Source: Fischerella sp. CENA71 (GTDB lineage Bacteria > Cyanobacteriota > Cyanobacteriia > Cyanobacteriales > Nostocaceae). Taken from it: a DNA stretch of 64,000 nt. The stretch is taken from assembly GCA_024239075.1 (NCBI GenBank), contig JANBVI010000028.1, positions 1 to 64,000 on the forward strand, given 5' to 3'. Shown piece by piece: positions 43,885-54,369 of the stretch; position 1 is the stretch's first letter, and every line of letters begins with the position of its first letter. The notes below the pieces were generated by a model. The model searched no databases. It saw nothing but the letters and a program-made list of their open reading frames with translations, and had not been told where the DNA came from. Both the position numbers and the translations under genes were made by a program.

Positions 43885-46851
43885 TCAATGCTGATTAACT
43901 TTAAACTTCTTCACTGCTGCTTGTAGTTCTTGAGAAATTTGTACAGTTTGTTGCAACGATTGAGAAATTTGGCGTGAGGAGTTACTTGTAATTTCTGACA
44001 CTTGGGAAATTTCTGTAACTAATTTAGTTACTGCTTGCGATGTTTCTACTTGAGATACTGTCGCTTGAGAAATTGATTGTACTAGTTCGTCTATTTCGCG
44101 AGAAACCCTGAAAATTTTGTTGAGCGAAGTTTTAGCATTTTCCACAATGCGAGAGCCTTCCATTACCTGAATAGTCCCTTGTTCCATGGCTTTAGCAACT
44201 TCATTCGTTTCTCGTTGAATGTTCTCTACAATCTGCTTGATTTCTTGAGTGGCGTCAGAACAACGTGCTGCGAGTTCAGCAACTTCAGTTGCAACCACGG
44301 TAAAACCTCGGCTTCCTTCTGTGGCTTTTGAGGCTTCTAGTCCCGCATTTACTGCTAACAAATTGGTTTGCACAGCAATATCGTTAATTAAGGAAATTAT
44401 GCGGGATATTTGTTGCGAAGATTCTCCCAGGCGCTTGACTTTTTTGCCTGTATCATCAATGGTTGAGCGTAAGCTAGATATTTTTTCTACCGTCGTATCT
44501 ATTGCGGTTTTACCTTCAGTGGCTGTACGAGAGGCTGTATGAGCGACTTCGGCAGCTTTTTTAGCGTTTTCTGCAACATCTACAATTGACAGTGTCATAC
44601 GCTCCATACTATTGAGGATAAGATTAATTTCAACAGCTTGTTTGATAGCTTCATCGCTAAGTTGGCTGATTGCACTTTCGTTTCCGGCGATCGCCACATT
44701 TACCTCAGTTGCATATGTTTTCACTTTGGTGACAATTTCTCTGAGATTCTCAACTATAAAGTTAAAAAACTCAGCGACAGTACCAAGTTCCCCTTGTGTA
44801 ACTTTCGCATGTACTGTCAAATCACCTTTTGATGCGCCTTCGATATCTCGCAACAGCTTGAAGATTTGTTGTTGTAATGCTTGTTTTTGTTGATTCTGCT
44901 CGCTCGCCATCATTTCTGCATGAGAACGAGACTTTTCTACCTGTGCAATGGTATGTGCTTGCTCTAGAGCATAGCCAATGGGAATTGCCAGCTGCTTAAA
45001 TAGATTTATTTCTGATTGTTGCCATTGACGAGGAGCAGAACACTGATGAGCGATTAATAAGCCGTATAACTTGTTGTTCAGCAATATTGGCGTGACTAAA
45101 TTCGCCTTGACTTCAAAAGCTTCTAGTTGAGCAATATGACATTCAGTCAAATCTGCTTCGTATATATTTTCTAGCGCTTGGATACGACCTTTTTGATATT
45201 TGTCTACATACTTTTTAGCAAAACAGGGATCAGCAATCTTTGCACCCAAAGCGCTTGGCCATTCATCACCAACGCATTCAGCTACAATTGTTCCTACCCA
45301 GTTTTCATCAAAGCGATAGACAATGATTCGATCTGCTTTGATTGCTTCTCGCAAATTTGTTACTGCTAAATCCAAAATTTGTGTGGTATTGAGCGAACCA
45401 TGAAGTTGAAAAGTAATGTTGTTGATTAACTCCATGAGTTTGGCATAATCTTCTTTTTGAAGAATTTGCTCTGTAAATTTGTCTGCCATGGCGTTAAAAC
45501 TAACAGCTAAATTGCCAATTTCATCATCAGCAAAAATCTCAGCACGCGCAGAGCGATCGCCTGAAGCCAATTTTTTAGCCGTTTGCTCTAGCTTCTGGAT
45601 AGGTGTAACAATTACCCTTCTAATAATCAGTATCCAAATGAAAGAAATTGCTAAGGCGACAACAAGAACAATAATTTCTATCCAAAGACTTTGTCCTGAC
45701 AATTGATTGAGAACAGTATCTGGAGTTCCCCGTACTAATATCGCGAGTGGCTTTTTGTCATATACAGGTTTTGCACCATTATTTGTTTCTATGATTTTAT
45801 TAGGTACGGCTTTTGCTGCCATTATGTAAGTCTGTTTACCTAATTTCAACCGTGCAGTTACTGTTTTTCCTTGAGCTAGGGTTGCTGCTTCGAGTAAAGA
45901 TTTACCTGCTTCGGGTAATGCTACATTCGGTATCCCTTGATTATTCTTCTGAGATTTATCTTGCTCTAGGGCTGTTGCTATAGTAAATCCTCCCGTTGGT
46001 TTATGTAGATAAACAGCACTGTAGCCTCCCCCAGTAGCTTCTAATGTTCCCCTGACAATGGTATCTTTGCCATTCACAATATCACCAGAGACTAATGCAC
46101 CGATGACTGCTTTTGTTTTTGGGTCTTTAACAGGTGTTACCGTGTAACGAATCAGAGCATCTTCTTGGTTAAAAACATTTGGTAAAGGAGGAGATTCTTT
46201 ACTCAGTTCCGACCAACTAATAATGCTGTTAGCTTTGATTTGTTGAGGTTTATTAAAAATCTCGCTGACTAAGTTATCAGGATTAAATATTTGTCCTTGA
46301 CGGTCAGTATTACCATTAACGACAATCTGCAAATTTTTACCGACAAGTGTAGCGTACTCAATTTTTCTTGCCTGAATTTCATTGATCAGAATTTGCTTAA
46401 CTTCTGCCTTCAAATTAGGGTTTAAGGTTTGACCTGCATTATGAGTAATGGCAGCTTCAATAATTGCCGGATTGTCTGATTGTTCACGAAAACCAAAGCC
46501 TATTTGATTGACCTTGGTATGATAAGCCATGTCTGTAACGGCTATTTCTGATTTTGCTTGTTCTAATGATAAAGCCTGTAAATTAGTAGTAATTAAGTAT
46601 CTTGCTACAAGACTAATTCCTAGAATAGATATTACTTCAGAAGCTATTAAAGCAACTACCTGCTTGCGGCTAATAGAAAGGTTACAAAACCATTGCCATA
46701 TAGAGTTTTTGACTTTTTTATTTCTAGTCAAATTATTTTTATATGACCTAATATTTTTTTGATAACTATCATTATAACTATTAGTTGATGATAGTTTTGT
46801 GGAAGCGTATCCTTGATGCAAATTTTGGTCTGTATTCGATTTATTTGCCAT
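43885..46851 (-). CDS. PixJ-like methyl-accepting chemoreceptor with DXCF cyanobacteriochrome GAF domain
   Basis: A 988-residue membrane chemoreceptor. In order: a basic, Asn/Ser-rich N-terminus; membrane helix 1 (about 64-87); a periplasmic double-Cache-like sensor of about 300 residues; membrane helix 2 (about 387-410); HAMP; a GAF domain (about 487-632); a second HAMP-like segment; and the signalling hairpin [20 protein letters not shown]. The GAF domain has DPCF (Cys543) and ECH (Cys571) plus [15 protein letters not shown], the full set of a bilin-binding DXCF cyanobacteriochrome, very close to the PixJ photoreceptor of blue/green phototaxis. ATG 46851 (MANKSNTDQ) is chosen. No che genes are adjacent, so it must use a pathway encoded elsewhere. 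Confidence 0.9.
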
Positions 46852-47756: not shown

Positions 47757-48839
47757 ATGACTACAACGCTAGCAACGCCCGATTCTATAGAATCTCTTCT
47801 AGGTGATGAAGCCCAAGATTTACTGACTTATAAAGCGAAAGTTTCCAAAGATTTATTGCATTTACCAGGCCCCGATTTTGTAGATCGAGTCTGGCTAAAT
47901 AGCGATCGCAATCCCCAAGTTTTGCGTAATCTGCAAACACTGTACTCTACTGGTAGACTTGCTTATACTGGCTATCTTTCCATCTTGCCAGTAGACCAAG
48001 GGATTGAACATTCAGCAGGTGCGTCATTTGCACCCAACCCGATTTACTTCGATCCAGAAAATATTATTAGGTTGGCGATCGCTGCTGGTTGTAATGCTGT
48101 AGCTACAACTTTAGGAGTGTTGGGTGCGGTTTCACGCAAATATGCCCACAAAATTCCCTTCATTGTCAAACTCAATCACAATGAACTCCTAACTTATCCC
48201 AATCAATTTGACCAAATTATGTTCGCTTCCGTCGAACAAGCGTGGAATTTGGGTGCGATCGCAGTGGGTGCAACAATTTATTTTGGTTCCGAAAACTCTA
48301 CCAGACAAATTCAAGAAGTCAGCCAAGCTTTTAAACGCGCCCATGAATTGGGAATGGTGACAATCCTCTGGTGCTATCTGCGTAATAATGCATTTAAACA
48401 AGATCAAGATTATCACCTTGCTGCTGACTTGACAGGACAAGCCAATCATTTAGGTGTAACCATAGAAGCTGACATCATTAAACAAAAGTTGCCAGAAAAT
48501 AACAATGGTTACACAGCAGTAGCCCAAGCAACAGGTAAGAGTTATGGTAAAACCAACAAACGGGTTTACACAGATTTGACAACAGATCACCCCATTGATT
48601 TAACTCGTTACCAAGTCTTGAATTGTTATTGTGGACGCGCTGGTTTAATCAATTCTGGTGGCGCATCCGGAAAAAATGACTTTGCAGAAGCAATCCGCAC
48701 CGCAGTCATTAACAAACGTGCTGGTGGTACAGGCTTAATTTCTGGACGCAAAACATTCCAGCGCCCCTTCGAGGAAGGTGTGCAATTATTCCACGCCATC
48801 CAAGATGTTTATTTATCTAAAGAAATAACGATCGCTTGA
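47757..48839 (+). CDS. fbaB: class I fructose-bisphosphate aldolase (FbaB/DhnA type)
   Basis: Cleaves fructose-1,6-bisphosphate through a Schiff base. It is strikingly similar in layout to E. coli Fba[92 protein letters not shown] and [13 protein letters not shown]. The predicted Schiff-base lysine is in the strand EADIIKQKL. The length is 360 residues. A GTAGGAAAG ribosome site precedes ATG. Cyanobacteria normally carry a class II enzyme as well; this class I form may serve other conditions. It stands alone behind a long spacer. Confidence 0.94.
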
Positions 48840-50602: not shown

Positions 50603-50848
50603 ATGAGTATCATCATCTCGGATGAAGTATTGCACACAGCGCAGATGTCAGAGGCTGAGTTACTGACTGAAATTGCAGTTATGCTGTTTCAAAAGGAAAA
50701 ATTTACTTTAGGTCAAGCAAGTCGTTTTGCAAAAATGAATCAACTCCAGTTTCAGCGATTACTTGCAAGTCGCCAAATTCCTCTCCATTACGATATTACC
50801 GAACTCAGAGAGGATGTAAAAAGTCTCGAAGCAAATAATTGGCGATGA
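50603..50848 (+). CDS. UPF0175 family antitoxin
   Basis: An 81-residue small protein of the UPF0175 family, the usual upstream partner of DUF3368/PIN-like toxins in cyanobacteria. Typical parts are the strand SIIISDEVLHTAQMSEAELL, ITELREDVKSLE at the C-terminus, and the helix-turn-helix-like FTLGQASRFAKMNQLQFQRL. Its TGA stop overlaps the toxin ATG (ATGA), so the two are translationally coupled. It should neutralise the toxin and autoregulate the operon, by family precedent. Confidence 0.88.
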   Translation: MSIIISDEVLHTAQMSEAELLTEIAVMLFQKEKFTLGQASRFAKMNQLQFQRLLASRQIPLHYDITELREDVKSLEANNWR

Positions 50849-51321
50849 TTGTAGTTAGTGACACATCGCCTATAAGTAATTTGGCTGCTATTGGTCAATT
50901 AGAATTATTGCAACAACTTTACGGCAGTGTAATTATTCCTACGGCAGTTTATCAGGAAATTCTCAATTCCGGCGATACAGACCCGGCTGTTTTGGCGATT
51001 CAAACTGTAAACTGGATTGAAACTCGTTCTGTCGCCAATATTACTTTGCTTCAAACTTTACAAAATAATTTAGACATTGGTGAAGCTGAAGCTATTACCC
51101 TTGCTGTCGAATTAAATGCTGATCGCCTGATTGTAGATGAACGAAGAGGTAGAAATGAAGCAATTAGGTTAGGTCTTCGGGTAACTGGAATATTGGGTAT
51201 ATTGCTAGCAGCAAAACAACAGGGATTAATTCCGTTGATACAGCCATTATTAGACGATTTGATTGGAAACGGCTTCTGGATTCGGGAACAATTGTACACA
51301 GAGCTATTACAATTAGCCTGA
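50845..51321 (+). CDS. DUF3368 PIN-like toxin
   Basis: A 158-residue PIN-fold predicted ribonuclease. The first acidic motif is VVSDTSPISNLAAIGQLELL, the second is NLDIGEAEAITLAVELNADR, and the third LIVDERRGRNEAIRLGL, together giving the three or four acidic residues that bind metal in PIN nucleases. ATG 50845 overlaps the antitoxin stop as ATGA; a TTG two codons upstream is also open but less likely. A 114-bp MITE was inserted 15 bases after its stop, duplicating ATGGGACGCC. Toxicity and the target RNA are not known. Confidence 0.88.
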   Translation: MIVVSDTSPISNLAAIGQLELLQQLYGSVIIPTAVYQEILNSGDTDPAVLAIQTVNWIETRSVANITLLQTLQNNLDIGEAEAITLAVELNADRLIVDERRGRNEAIRLGLRVTGILGILLAAKQQGLIPLIQPLLDDLIGNGFWIREQLYTELLQLA

Positions 51322-51738: not shown

Positions 51739-54369
51739 ATGTCTTTTGTTCCATTGCACATTCATAGTGACTACAGTCTGTTGGATGGTGCGAGTCAAAT
51801 ACCAAATTTAGTGGATCGTGCTATCGAACTGGATATTAAAGCGATCGCTCTGACGGATCATGGTGTGATGTATGGTGCGATCGAACTCATAAAAATTTGT
51901 CGCAACAAAAATATTAAGCCAATAATTGGCAATGAAATGTATATTATCAACGGCGATATTACTAAACAAGAACGCCGTCCTCGCTATCATCAAATTGTTT
52001 TAGCAAAAAATACTAAAGGCTATAAAAATTTAGTTAAATTAACAACTATCTCTCACCTCCAAGGTGTACAAGGCAAAGGCATTTTTTCTCGTCCTTGTAT
52101 TAGCAAAGAATTACTCAAAACATACCATGAAGATTTAATCGTTACTAGTGCTTGTTTGGGTGGGGAAGTACCCCAAGCAATTTTGGCTGGTAAACTAGAT
52201 GCAGCCCGCCGAGTTGCTCAATGGTATAAAGATGTATTTGGTGAAGATTATTATTTAGAAATTCAAGATCATGGTTCTCCCGAAGACCGAATTGTTAATG
52301 TTGAGATTGTCAAAATTGCGCGGGAATTAGGGATAAAAATTGTTGCTACAAATGATTCTCATTATATTTCCTGTTATGACGTTGAAGCACATGACGCCTT
52401 ATTGTGTATTCAAACAGGGAAATTAATAGTTGAAGATAACCGAATGCGTTATAGCGGTACAGAGTATTTAAAGTCCGCTGAAGAGATGAGACAGCTATTT
52501 CGTGATCATCTACCTGATGATGTCATTGAAGAAGCGATCGCCAATACTGTAGAAGTAGCAGAGAAAATAGAACCATACAATATTTTGGGTGAGCCTCGGA
52601 TTCCCAATTATCCAATTCCATCTGGCCATACTGCTGACACTTATGTCGAGGAAATTGCTTGGCAGGGATTATTACAAAAACTAAATCGCAAATCCCGCAA
52701 CGAAATCGATTTAAGTTACAAAGAAAGGCTGGAATATGAATTAAAAATGATTCAGCAAATGGGTTTTTCCACCTACTTTTTAGTTGTGTGGGACTACATC
52801 AAATTTGCGAGAGATAATGATATTCCGGTTGGACCGGGTCGTGGATCTGCCGCAGGTTCTTTGGTAGCTTATACTATGGGAATTACCAATATAGATCCTG
52901 TACATCACGGCTTACTTTTTGAAAGATTTCTCAATCCAGAACGGAAATCTATGCCAGATATTGACACGGATTTCTGTATTTCTCAAAGAGATAAAGTCAT
53001 AGAATATGTTACAGAAAAATACGGTACAGAAAGAGTAGCTCAAATTATTACTTTTAACCGTCTGACTTCCAAAGCAGTTTTAAAAGATGTCGCCAGAGTG
53101 TTAAATATTCCTTATGCAGAATCAGACAAAATGGCGAAACTAATTCCTGTTTCACGGGGTAAACCTGCCAAGTTAAAAGTGATGATTTCTGATGATACTC
53201 CTGAACCAGAATTTAAAGCTAGATATGATAATGATCCAAGAGTTCGCCATTGGATAGATATGGCAATCCGCATCGAAGGAACTAACAAAACTTTCGGCGT
53301 TCATGCAGCAGGTGTAGTCATTTCTGCTGATCCATTAGATGAAATTGTGCCACTTCAGAAAAATAACGATGGTTCTGTGATTACCCAGTATTTTATGGAA
53401 GATTTAGAATCACTGGGTTTGTTAAAAATGGATTTTCTCGGCTTGAAAAATCTGAGTATGATTCAGAAAACCATCGAATTAATTGAAAGTAATCATGGAT
53501 TTAAGATTGACCCTTATGTAATTACTGCTCAAGAAAGAAAAGCTCAGAAAATATTAGCCAAAGGTGGAGAAGGCGCAAAACTTCCCCCAGATGTCAAAAA
53601 GACCTACGAATTATTAGAAGCAGGTGAATTAGAAGGAGTATTTCAGTTAGAATCTTCTGGAATGCGTCAGATAGTACGTGATTTGAAGCCTTCTAATATA
53701 GAAGATATTTCTTCGATTTTAGCACTATATCGACCAGGTCCATTAGATGCGGGGCTAATTCCGAAATTTATTAACCGCAAACACGGGCGGGAAAATATTG
53801 ATTATGAACACACGATTTTAGAACCAATTTTAGATGAAACCTATGGAATTATGGTTTATCAAGAGCAAATTATGAAAATTGCTCAAGATATGGCTGGATA
53901 TTCTTTAGGTCAAGCTGACTTGCTGCGTCGGGCGATGGGTAAAAAGAAAGTTTCCGAGATGCAGAAGCAGCGAGAAAAATTCATGGATGGTGCAGCCAAA
54001 AACGGTGTTAAGCAACAAATTGCAGAAGCTTTATTTGATCAAATGTTAAAGTTTGCCGAATATTGCTTGAGTTATGACACTGAAGTTTTGACTGTAGAAT
54101 ACGGATTTGTGCCAATCGGAGAAATCGTCGAAAAAAGAATAGAGTGTAATGTTTACACAGTTGATAGTAATGGTTATGTGTATACACAACCTATTGCTCA
54201 GTGGCATAATCGTGGTGTTCAAGAAGTATTTGAATATGCTTTAGAAGATGGTTCGGTAATTCGAGCTACGAAAGATCATAAATTTATGACCAGTGAGGGG
54301 CAAATGTTACCTATTGATGAAATATTTGCAAAGGAATTAGATTTGCTACAAGTAATTGGTAATGGGTAA
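51739..54369 (+). CDS. dnaE-N: DNA polymerase III alpha subunit, N-terminal half with split intein
   Basis: The first part of replicative DNA polymerase fused to an N-intein. The PHP domain starts [20 protein letters not shown], and the catalytic carboxylates are in [20 protein letters not shown]. After 775 extein residues ending MLKFAEY, the intein begins at Cys776 ([20 protein letters not shown]) and runs 101 residues to the stop. Its block B His is in [11 protein letters not shown]. The C-intein and polymerase C-half must be encoded by a separate dnaE-C gene outside this window; the two proteins trans-splice to full DnaE. This arrangement is typical of many cyanobacteria, including Nostoc, whose DnaE intein is very similar. 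Confidence 0.97.
54064..54366 (+). other. DnaE split N-intein
   Basis: Codons 776-876 of dnaE-N. It begins with the nucleophile Cys after FAEY, contains the TKDHKFMT block B, and ends at LQVIGNG just before the stop. It matches the known Nostoc punctiforme DnaE N-intein in nearly every conserved position, with a few differences ([15 protein letters not shown]). The C-intein is not in this window. Confidence 0.95.

Follow-up and report, generated by a model that had tools for sequence, protein, structure and literature searches.

PixJ-type receptors and the window gene

PixJ1 of Synechocystis is a membrane chemoreceptor of the MCP type that carries a cyanobacteriochrome (CBCR) GAF domain and switches between blue and green. 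It has two GAF domains, of which only the second binds bilin, and its gene lies in the tax1 cluster; PtxD (NpF2164) of Nostoc punctiforme, a CBCR chemoreceptor of hormogonia phototaxis, has seven GAF domains and is encoded in the ptx cluster (both from PMC5812497; papers are cited here from excerpts of their text, including PMC7690835, PMC9239167 and PMC6495340, on which we also drew). The nearest structurally characterized counterpart of the receptor described below is TePixJ, the PixJ protein of Thermosynechococcus (PDB 3vv4/4glq/6p58), with a length of 940 residues (PMC6955287). In one genome a frame of 941 codons encodes a GAF domain that shows 100% identity over the 148 residues taken from 3vv4, and because of this identity and the matching length we take that receptor to be TePixJ. 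Pfam finds dCache_1 at residues 87-320 of TePixJ (54.8 bits, cut-off 45), together with HAMP, GAF and MCPsignal.

The window, a stretch of 64,000 nucleotides from contig JANBVI010000028.1 of Fischerella sp. CENA71, encodes a receptor of the same layout (Table 1). The open reading frame given in the preliminary description, with its coordinates, Cys543 in a DPCF motif, Cys571 in an ECH motif and a further block of 15 residues, was recovered in every detail from the sequence. HAMP, GAF and MCPsignal are the only Pfam domains of the window protein at E≤0.01, the GAF domain standing alone without PAS or PHY neighbours, and no domain is matched before residue 410. Like PixJ1 it is a membrane MCP with a CBCR GAF, but it has one GAF domain where PixJ1 has two, and from PtxD it differs both in the number of GAF domains and in being encoded by an orphan gene. 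With TePixJ it shares the complete order of transmembrane helix, double Cache domain, transmembrane helix, HAMP, single DXCF GAF and MCP domain, as well as both cysteines and the D, F, R, H, Q and N residues at the compared positions, and from HAMP to the C-terminus (residues 417-985) the two proteins are 49% identical (E 1e-175). They differ in the periplasm, where TePixJ has dCache_1 and the window protein a domain that cannot be convincingly aligned with it, and in their setting, since the TePixJ gene belongs to a che operon.

Table 1. Features of the window receptor and the basis of their assignment.
Feature	Position in window	Strand	Basis
Orphan PixJ-like chemoreceptor P0001, 988 aa	43885..46851	-	ORF, Pfam, TePixJ identity
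Transmembrane helix 1, residues 65-83	46603..46659	-	hydropathy 2.38
Periplasmic double Cache domain, residues 84-390	45682..46602	-	predicted model
Transmembrane helix 2, residues 391-409	45625..45681	-	hydropathy 2.98
HAMP, residues 410-458	45478..45624	-	Pfam PF00672, 57.6 bits
CBCR-type GAF, residues 490-629	44965..45384	-	Pfam
DXCF motif D541-P-C543-F544 (TePixJ D492/C494/F495)	45220..45231	-	alignment
Canonical bilin-attachment Cys571-His572 (TePixJ C522/H523)	45136..45141	-	alignment
MCP signalling domain, residues 768-952	43996..44550	-	Pfam PF00015, 127.3 bits

The preliminary description implied that one chemoreceptor combining a light sensor with a ligand domain in the periplasm would be new, and for a time we also regarded the pairing with a Cache domain as unusual; this was abandoned, since TePixJ itself carries dCache_1 in the same place. 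A search for related loci in the genome contigs gave four, of which one (L024 from Bdellovibrionaceae, matching in the MCP part only) was set aside. The periplasmic family of the window protein also occurs with a single DPCF/CH GAF domain outside the window's family (L127, L128, L130-L133, L137), and two-GAF receptors (L145, L146, L152) are found among these relatives, while ten one-GAF relatives from other families (L134-L136, L138-L144) are missing the DXCF cysteine. Among open-licence PMC papers none contained PixJ and Cache as whole words, a search that passes over the spellings PixJ1 and TePixJ; cyanobacteriochrome combined with dCache, and likewise with Cache domain and chemotaxis, listed only one c-di-GMP review. 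Judged from its sequence, the window protein is an ordinary, well-preserved PixJ-like photoreceptor that carries its own kind of Cache domain. We consider it likely that it acts in the manner of TePixJ, as a membrane chemoreceptor in which a bilin-binding GAF domain would respond to blue and green light, the Cache domain would add a ligand input, and the MCP domain would pass the output to CheA/CheW.

Comparison of the window gene with four orthologs gave Ka/Ks values of 0.16-0.27 for the GAF domain, 0.17-0.21 for the MCP part and 0.22-0.31 for the periplasmic part, which points to purifying selection on all three; the N-terminal tail is relaxed (0.45-1.74).

Cysteines and predicted bilin pocket of the GAF domain

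The best PDB match of the window GAF in a phmmer search is TePixJ 3vv4 (E 3.3e-46), with a gapless alignment across both cysteines, which lie 28 residues apart in either protein. This alignment, which had been named beforehand as a comparison that could overturn the CBCR assignment, places the two cysteines at the DXCF (C494) and canonical (C522) positions. Both motifs, D541-P-C543-F544 and E570-C571-H572, fall within the domain, and the domain has the fold of a bilin GAF. Residues near the bilin in TePixJ were taken from those listed in the excerpts of PMC6955287, to which F495 was added as a member of the DXCF motif and not as a contact named there. Eight of the ten pocket and motif positions compared are identical (TePixJ/window: D492/D541, C494/C543, F495/F544, R507/R556, C522/C571, H523/H572, Q526/Q575 and N535/N584). 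The two that differ are H498 and W499, the residues with which TePixJ holds the B-ring propionate (PMC6955287); the window protein has K547 and Y548 there.

On the TePixJ model, phycocyanobilin would be bound at Cys571 and probably isomerised to phycoviolobilin, and Cys543 would make and break a second link at C10. With this link forming and breaking, the GAF domain should absorb blue light in its dark state and green light in the other state, and the light signal would travel along the coiled coil to reach the MCP domain and so the activity of CheA/CheW. One gene of the ferredoxin-dependent bilin reductase family is present in the genome. Blue/green switching is our best prediction for the window GAF; the assignment is not certain, because DXCF domains with other colour pairs exist. 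A bilin-binding GAF that retains phycocyanobilin, or that switches between blue and teal or blue and orange, is accordingly the alternative that survives best, and we regard it as a possible though clearly less probable outcome. It draws on these other colour pairs and on the pocket itself, which departs from that of TePixJ at the two propionate-binding positions; against it, D541, H572, Q575 and N584 are retained, as is the second cysteine, which has been tied to phycoviolobilin formation (PMC11284453, excerpted text).

The preliminary description had further supposed that one or both cysteines are missing from most GAF domains of chemoreceptors. This does not hold in the present genome: by eye, 8 of the 11 GAF domains visible in those MCP-type ORFs that the window protein matches keep both, and five of the 11 have DPCF together with Cys-His.

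Periplasmic domain, paralogues and GAF clades

The suggestion that the periplasmic part is Cache-like gained support from a confident structure model and from fold comparison. The modelled domain has two PAS-like lobes that follow a long helix at the N-terminus, as in dCache, and its Foldseek TM-scores to the best matches are moderate (about 0.4-0.6); all 44 references were used for this model, and 40 of the 103 GAF references for that of the GAF domain. By sequence the domain matched no Pfam family, dCache_1 included, and no PDB chain at E≤1, and in relatives of the window protein it is weakly dCache_3-like. Sequence homology to the periplasmic domain of TePixJ did not emerge convincingly (hhalign probability 0.9%, E 0.064, with a single TePixJ sequence). 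If the receptor works as proposed, a small periplasmic molecule would be the ligand of the double Cache domain, whose response would converge with the light signal on the HAMP and MCP parts.

Two paralogues on contig C64 belong to one receptor family with the window protein, which keeps both parts. Paralogue C64:280k is 67% identical to the window protein over residues 316-986 and retains DPCF and TECH; compared with the full-length relative L023, it lacks 168 residues, the missing stretch being periplasmic. Its counterparts in two more members of the genus are 232 and 247 residues shorter, and full-length copies are found in two others (G004 and G057), so that three of the five genus members have shortened copies, of three lengths and all in frame. 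The shortened loci (L054:11908-14304, L068 and L066, with losses of 168, 232 or 247 residues) have DPCF and Cys-His intact, and a receptor from another genus (G029) is also shortened. Paralogue C64:297k, 47% identical over residues 38-986, keeps the periplasmic domain, but its cysteine motifs are replaced by NPYF and SHSY.

These shortened copies lend some weight to a reading in which the window receptor responds effectively to light alone and its double Cache domain is a structural spacer that takes no ligand, and our analysis gave no ligand site for the domain. We think this unlikely. The window orthologs compared all have a full periplasmic part, which is under the purifying selection given above, and the cysteine-less paralogue C64:297k likewise keeps its periplasmic part, with Ka/Ks values of 0.25 and 0.31.

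For the GAF domain, 150 matches were reduced to 103 distinct sequences, each covering at least 110 positions, and placed with two PDB chains in a quick tree without bootstrap (SH-aLRT 83 for the window clade, 100 for a cysteine-less clade). The window clade, the cysteine-less clade and a single row with DPCF/CH (L069) join at one unresolved fork (88), for which reason we call the cysteine-less clade neighbouring and not sister; the position of TePixJ, on a long branch, is unsure. In the window clade 27 of 28 rows have both cysteines, 25 of these with Cys-His and two with Cys-Tyr, the exception being L048 with neither, while none of the 18 rows of the neighbouring clade has either cysteine. Since the loci of the tree were picked by similarity to the window protein (loci from L125 onward are absent), both counts describe the fetched loci and not a random sample. 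Conservation is lower in the neighbouring clade than in the window clade by 0.33 at the ten pocket and motif positions and by 0.11 at other positions, and the difference at the ten is reached by 0.12% of random ten-column draws. The test was first run with seven positions (F495, H498 and W499 omitted) and then with ten, nine, eight and seven, the last three subsets giving 1.44%, 0.04% and 0.91%. Identity to TePixJ at pocket and motif positions is 75% in the window clade and 13% in the neighbouring clade, against 45% and 35% at the 138 others. We read this pattern as a bilin pocket that is apparently maintained by selection in the window clade. Counting against this reading are the loss of both cysteines in L048, the two Cys-Tyr rows, the departure from TePixJ at K547 and Y548, and the constraint found on the cysteine-less GAF of C64:297k.

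That the window GAF is a former photoreceptor which no longer binds bilin, making the protein a plain chemoreceptor like C64:297k, is very improbable: the neighbouring clade and the ten one-GAF relatives without the DXCF cysteine indicate that cysteine loss is common in this receptor family, and Ka/Ks does not single out bilin binding, as values of 0.20 and 0.37 show constraint on the cysteine-less GAF of C64:297k too, but nearly all members of the window clade have both cysteines, and this clade, unlike the cysteine-less one, conserves the pocket positions compared.

Returning to the TePixJ-like reading, a more far-reaching and tentative proposal is that the window protein is a dual sensor, in which the double-Cache ligand and blue/green light would be summed on one MCP array. 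Duplication may then have split the inputs into light-only receptors (by in-frame periplasmic deletion), chemical-only receptors (by loss of the cysteines) and dual receptors, and a hormogonium could weigh light against chemical cues by changing the proportions of the paralogues that share an array. How moving cyanobacteria combine light and chemical cues is a poorly known field, and the apparent natural set in this genome, with receptors for light only, for a chemical only and for both built on a common signalling chassis, would open signal integration to testing. The paralogue set thereby adds interest to an otherwise known type of receptor.

Genomic setting and che genes

As had been stated from the sequence, no che genes lie beside the receptor: none of the 11 CheW-family matches of the genome is on the window contig (C28), and the ORFs on either side appear, by eye, to be metabolic. 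Because the gene lies away from CheY-, CheW- and CheA-type genes, we call it PixJ-like and not pixJ. The genes upstream, at 47757 and 49167, are aldolase- and aminotransferase-like by eye; this pair is common to L106, L107 and L109 and absent from the remaining loci whose flanks were compared. In Fischerella sp. PCC 9431 (L021) the window ortholog is divergent to a multi-GAF ORF and one further ORF, and these two have close relatives on contig C32 of the window genome, namely a three-GAF MCP and a CheW-REC protein. In the C32 arrangement (L105:8255-11314), all three GAF domains of the MCP are of the DPCF/CH type, and its gene adjoins that of the CheW-REC protein.

The preliminary description had advised looking for che operons elsewhere in the genome, and on contig C64 we found one resembling that of TePixJ, together with the close paralogues. 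A single stretch encodes DUF4388-REC, REC, CheW, an MCP whose GAF is of the DPCF/Cys-Tyr type, CheA and a second MCP; a third MCP, the shortened C64:280k, is located about 20 kb from this stretch. CheW-family domains also occur on four further contigs (C53, C88, C26 and C32). Among the clusters compared, that of C64 is nearest to the TePixJ operon (L161), with 47% identity for CheA, 68% for REC and 42% for CheW, as compared with 39%, 47% and 31% for the C26 cluster, the MCP of which has no GAF by Pfam. The DUF4388-REC protein of the TePixJ operon is matched slightly better on contig C4 (35%) than on C64 (33%). An assignment of the C64 cluster as the hmp locus, based on gene order, was dropped, since CheA, REC and CheW of the TePixJ operon all match C64 best. 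In G029, where the same type of cluster is found (L124), a DPCF/TECH receptor is encoded by the second gene downstream of cheA.

The CheA/CheW pair served by the window receptor would most likely be that of the C64 operon, the home of its close paralogues; the separation of the gene from these supposed partners and the CheW-family domains on the four further contigs speak against it. Downstream, the signal would be passed to CheY-type regulators and then to type IV pili.

The receptor encoded between CheW and CheA (L004 on C64, and L124:1351-4239) has a GAF domain with DPCF in which Cys-Tyr replaces Cys-His. Of its fetched relatives 6/8 have both cysteines and 0/8 have Cys-His; the L124 copy carries dCache_1.

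Elsewhere in the window, positions 51739-54369 of the plus strand encode the N-terminal part of DNA polymerase III alpha, the end of which resembles the N half of a split intein (Pfam Intein_splicing 21.1 bits, below the cut-off of 35.8), which we take to be the known cyanobacterial DnaE split intein. At 50603-51321, also on the plus strand, a UPF0175 protein overlaps a DUF3368 protein in a layout like that of a toxin-antitoxin pair.
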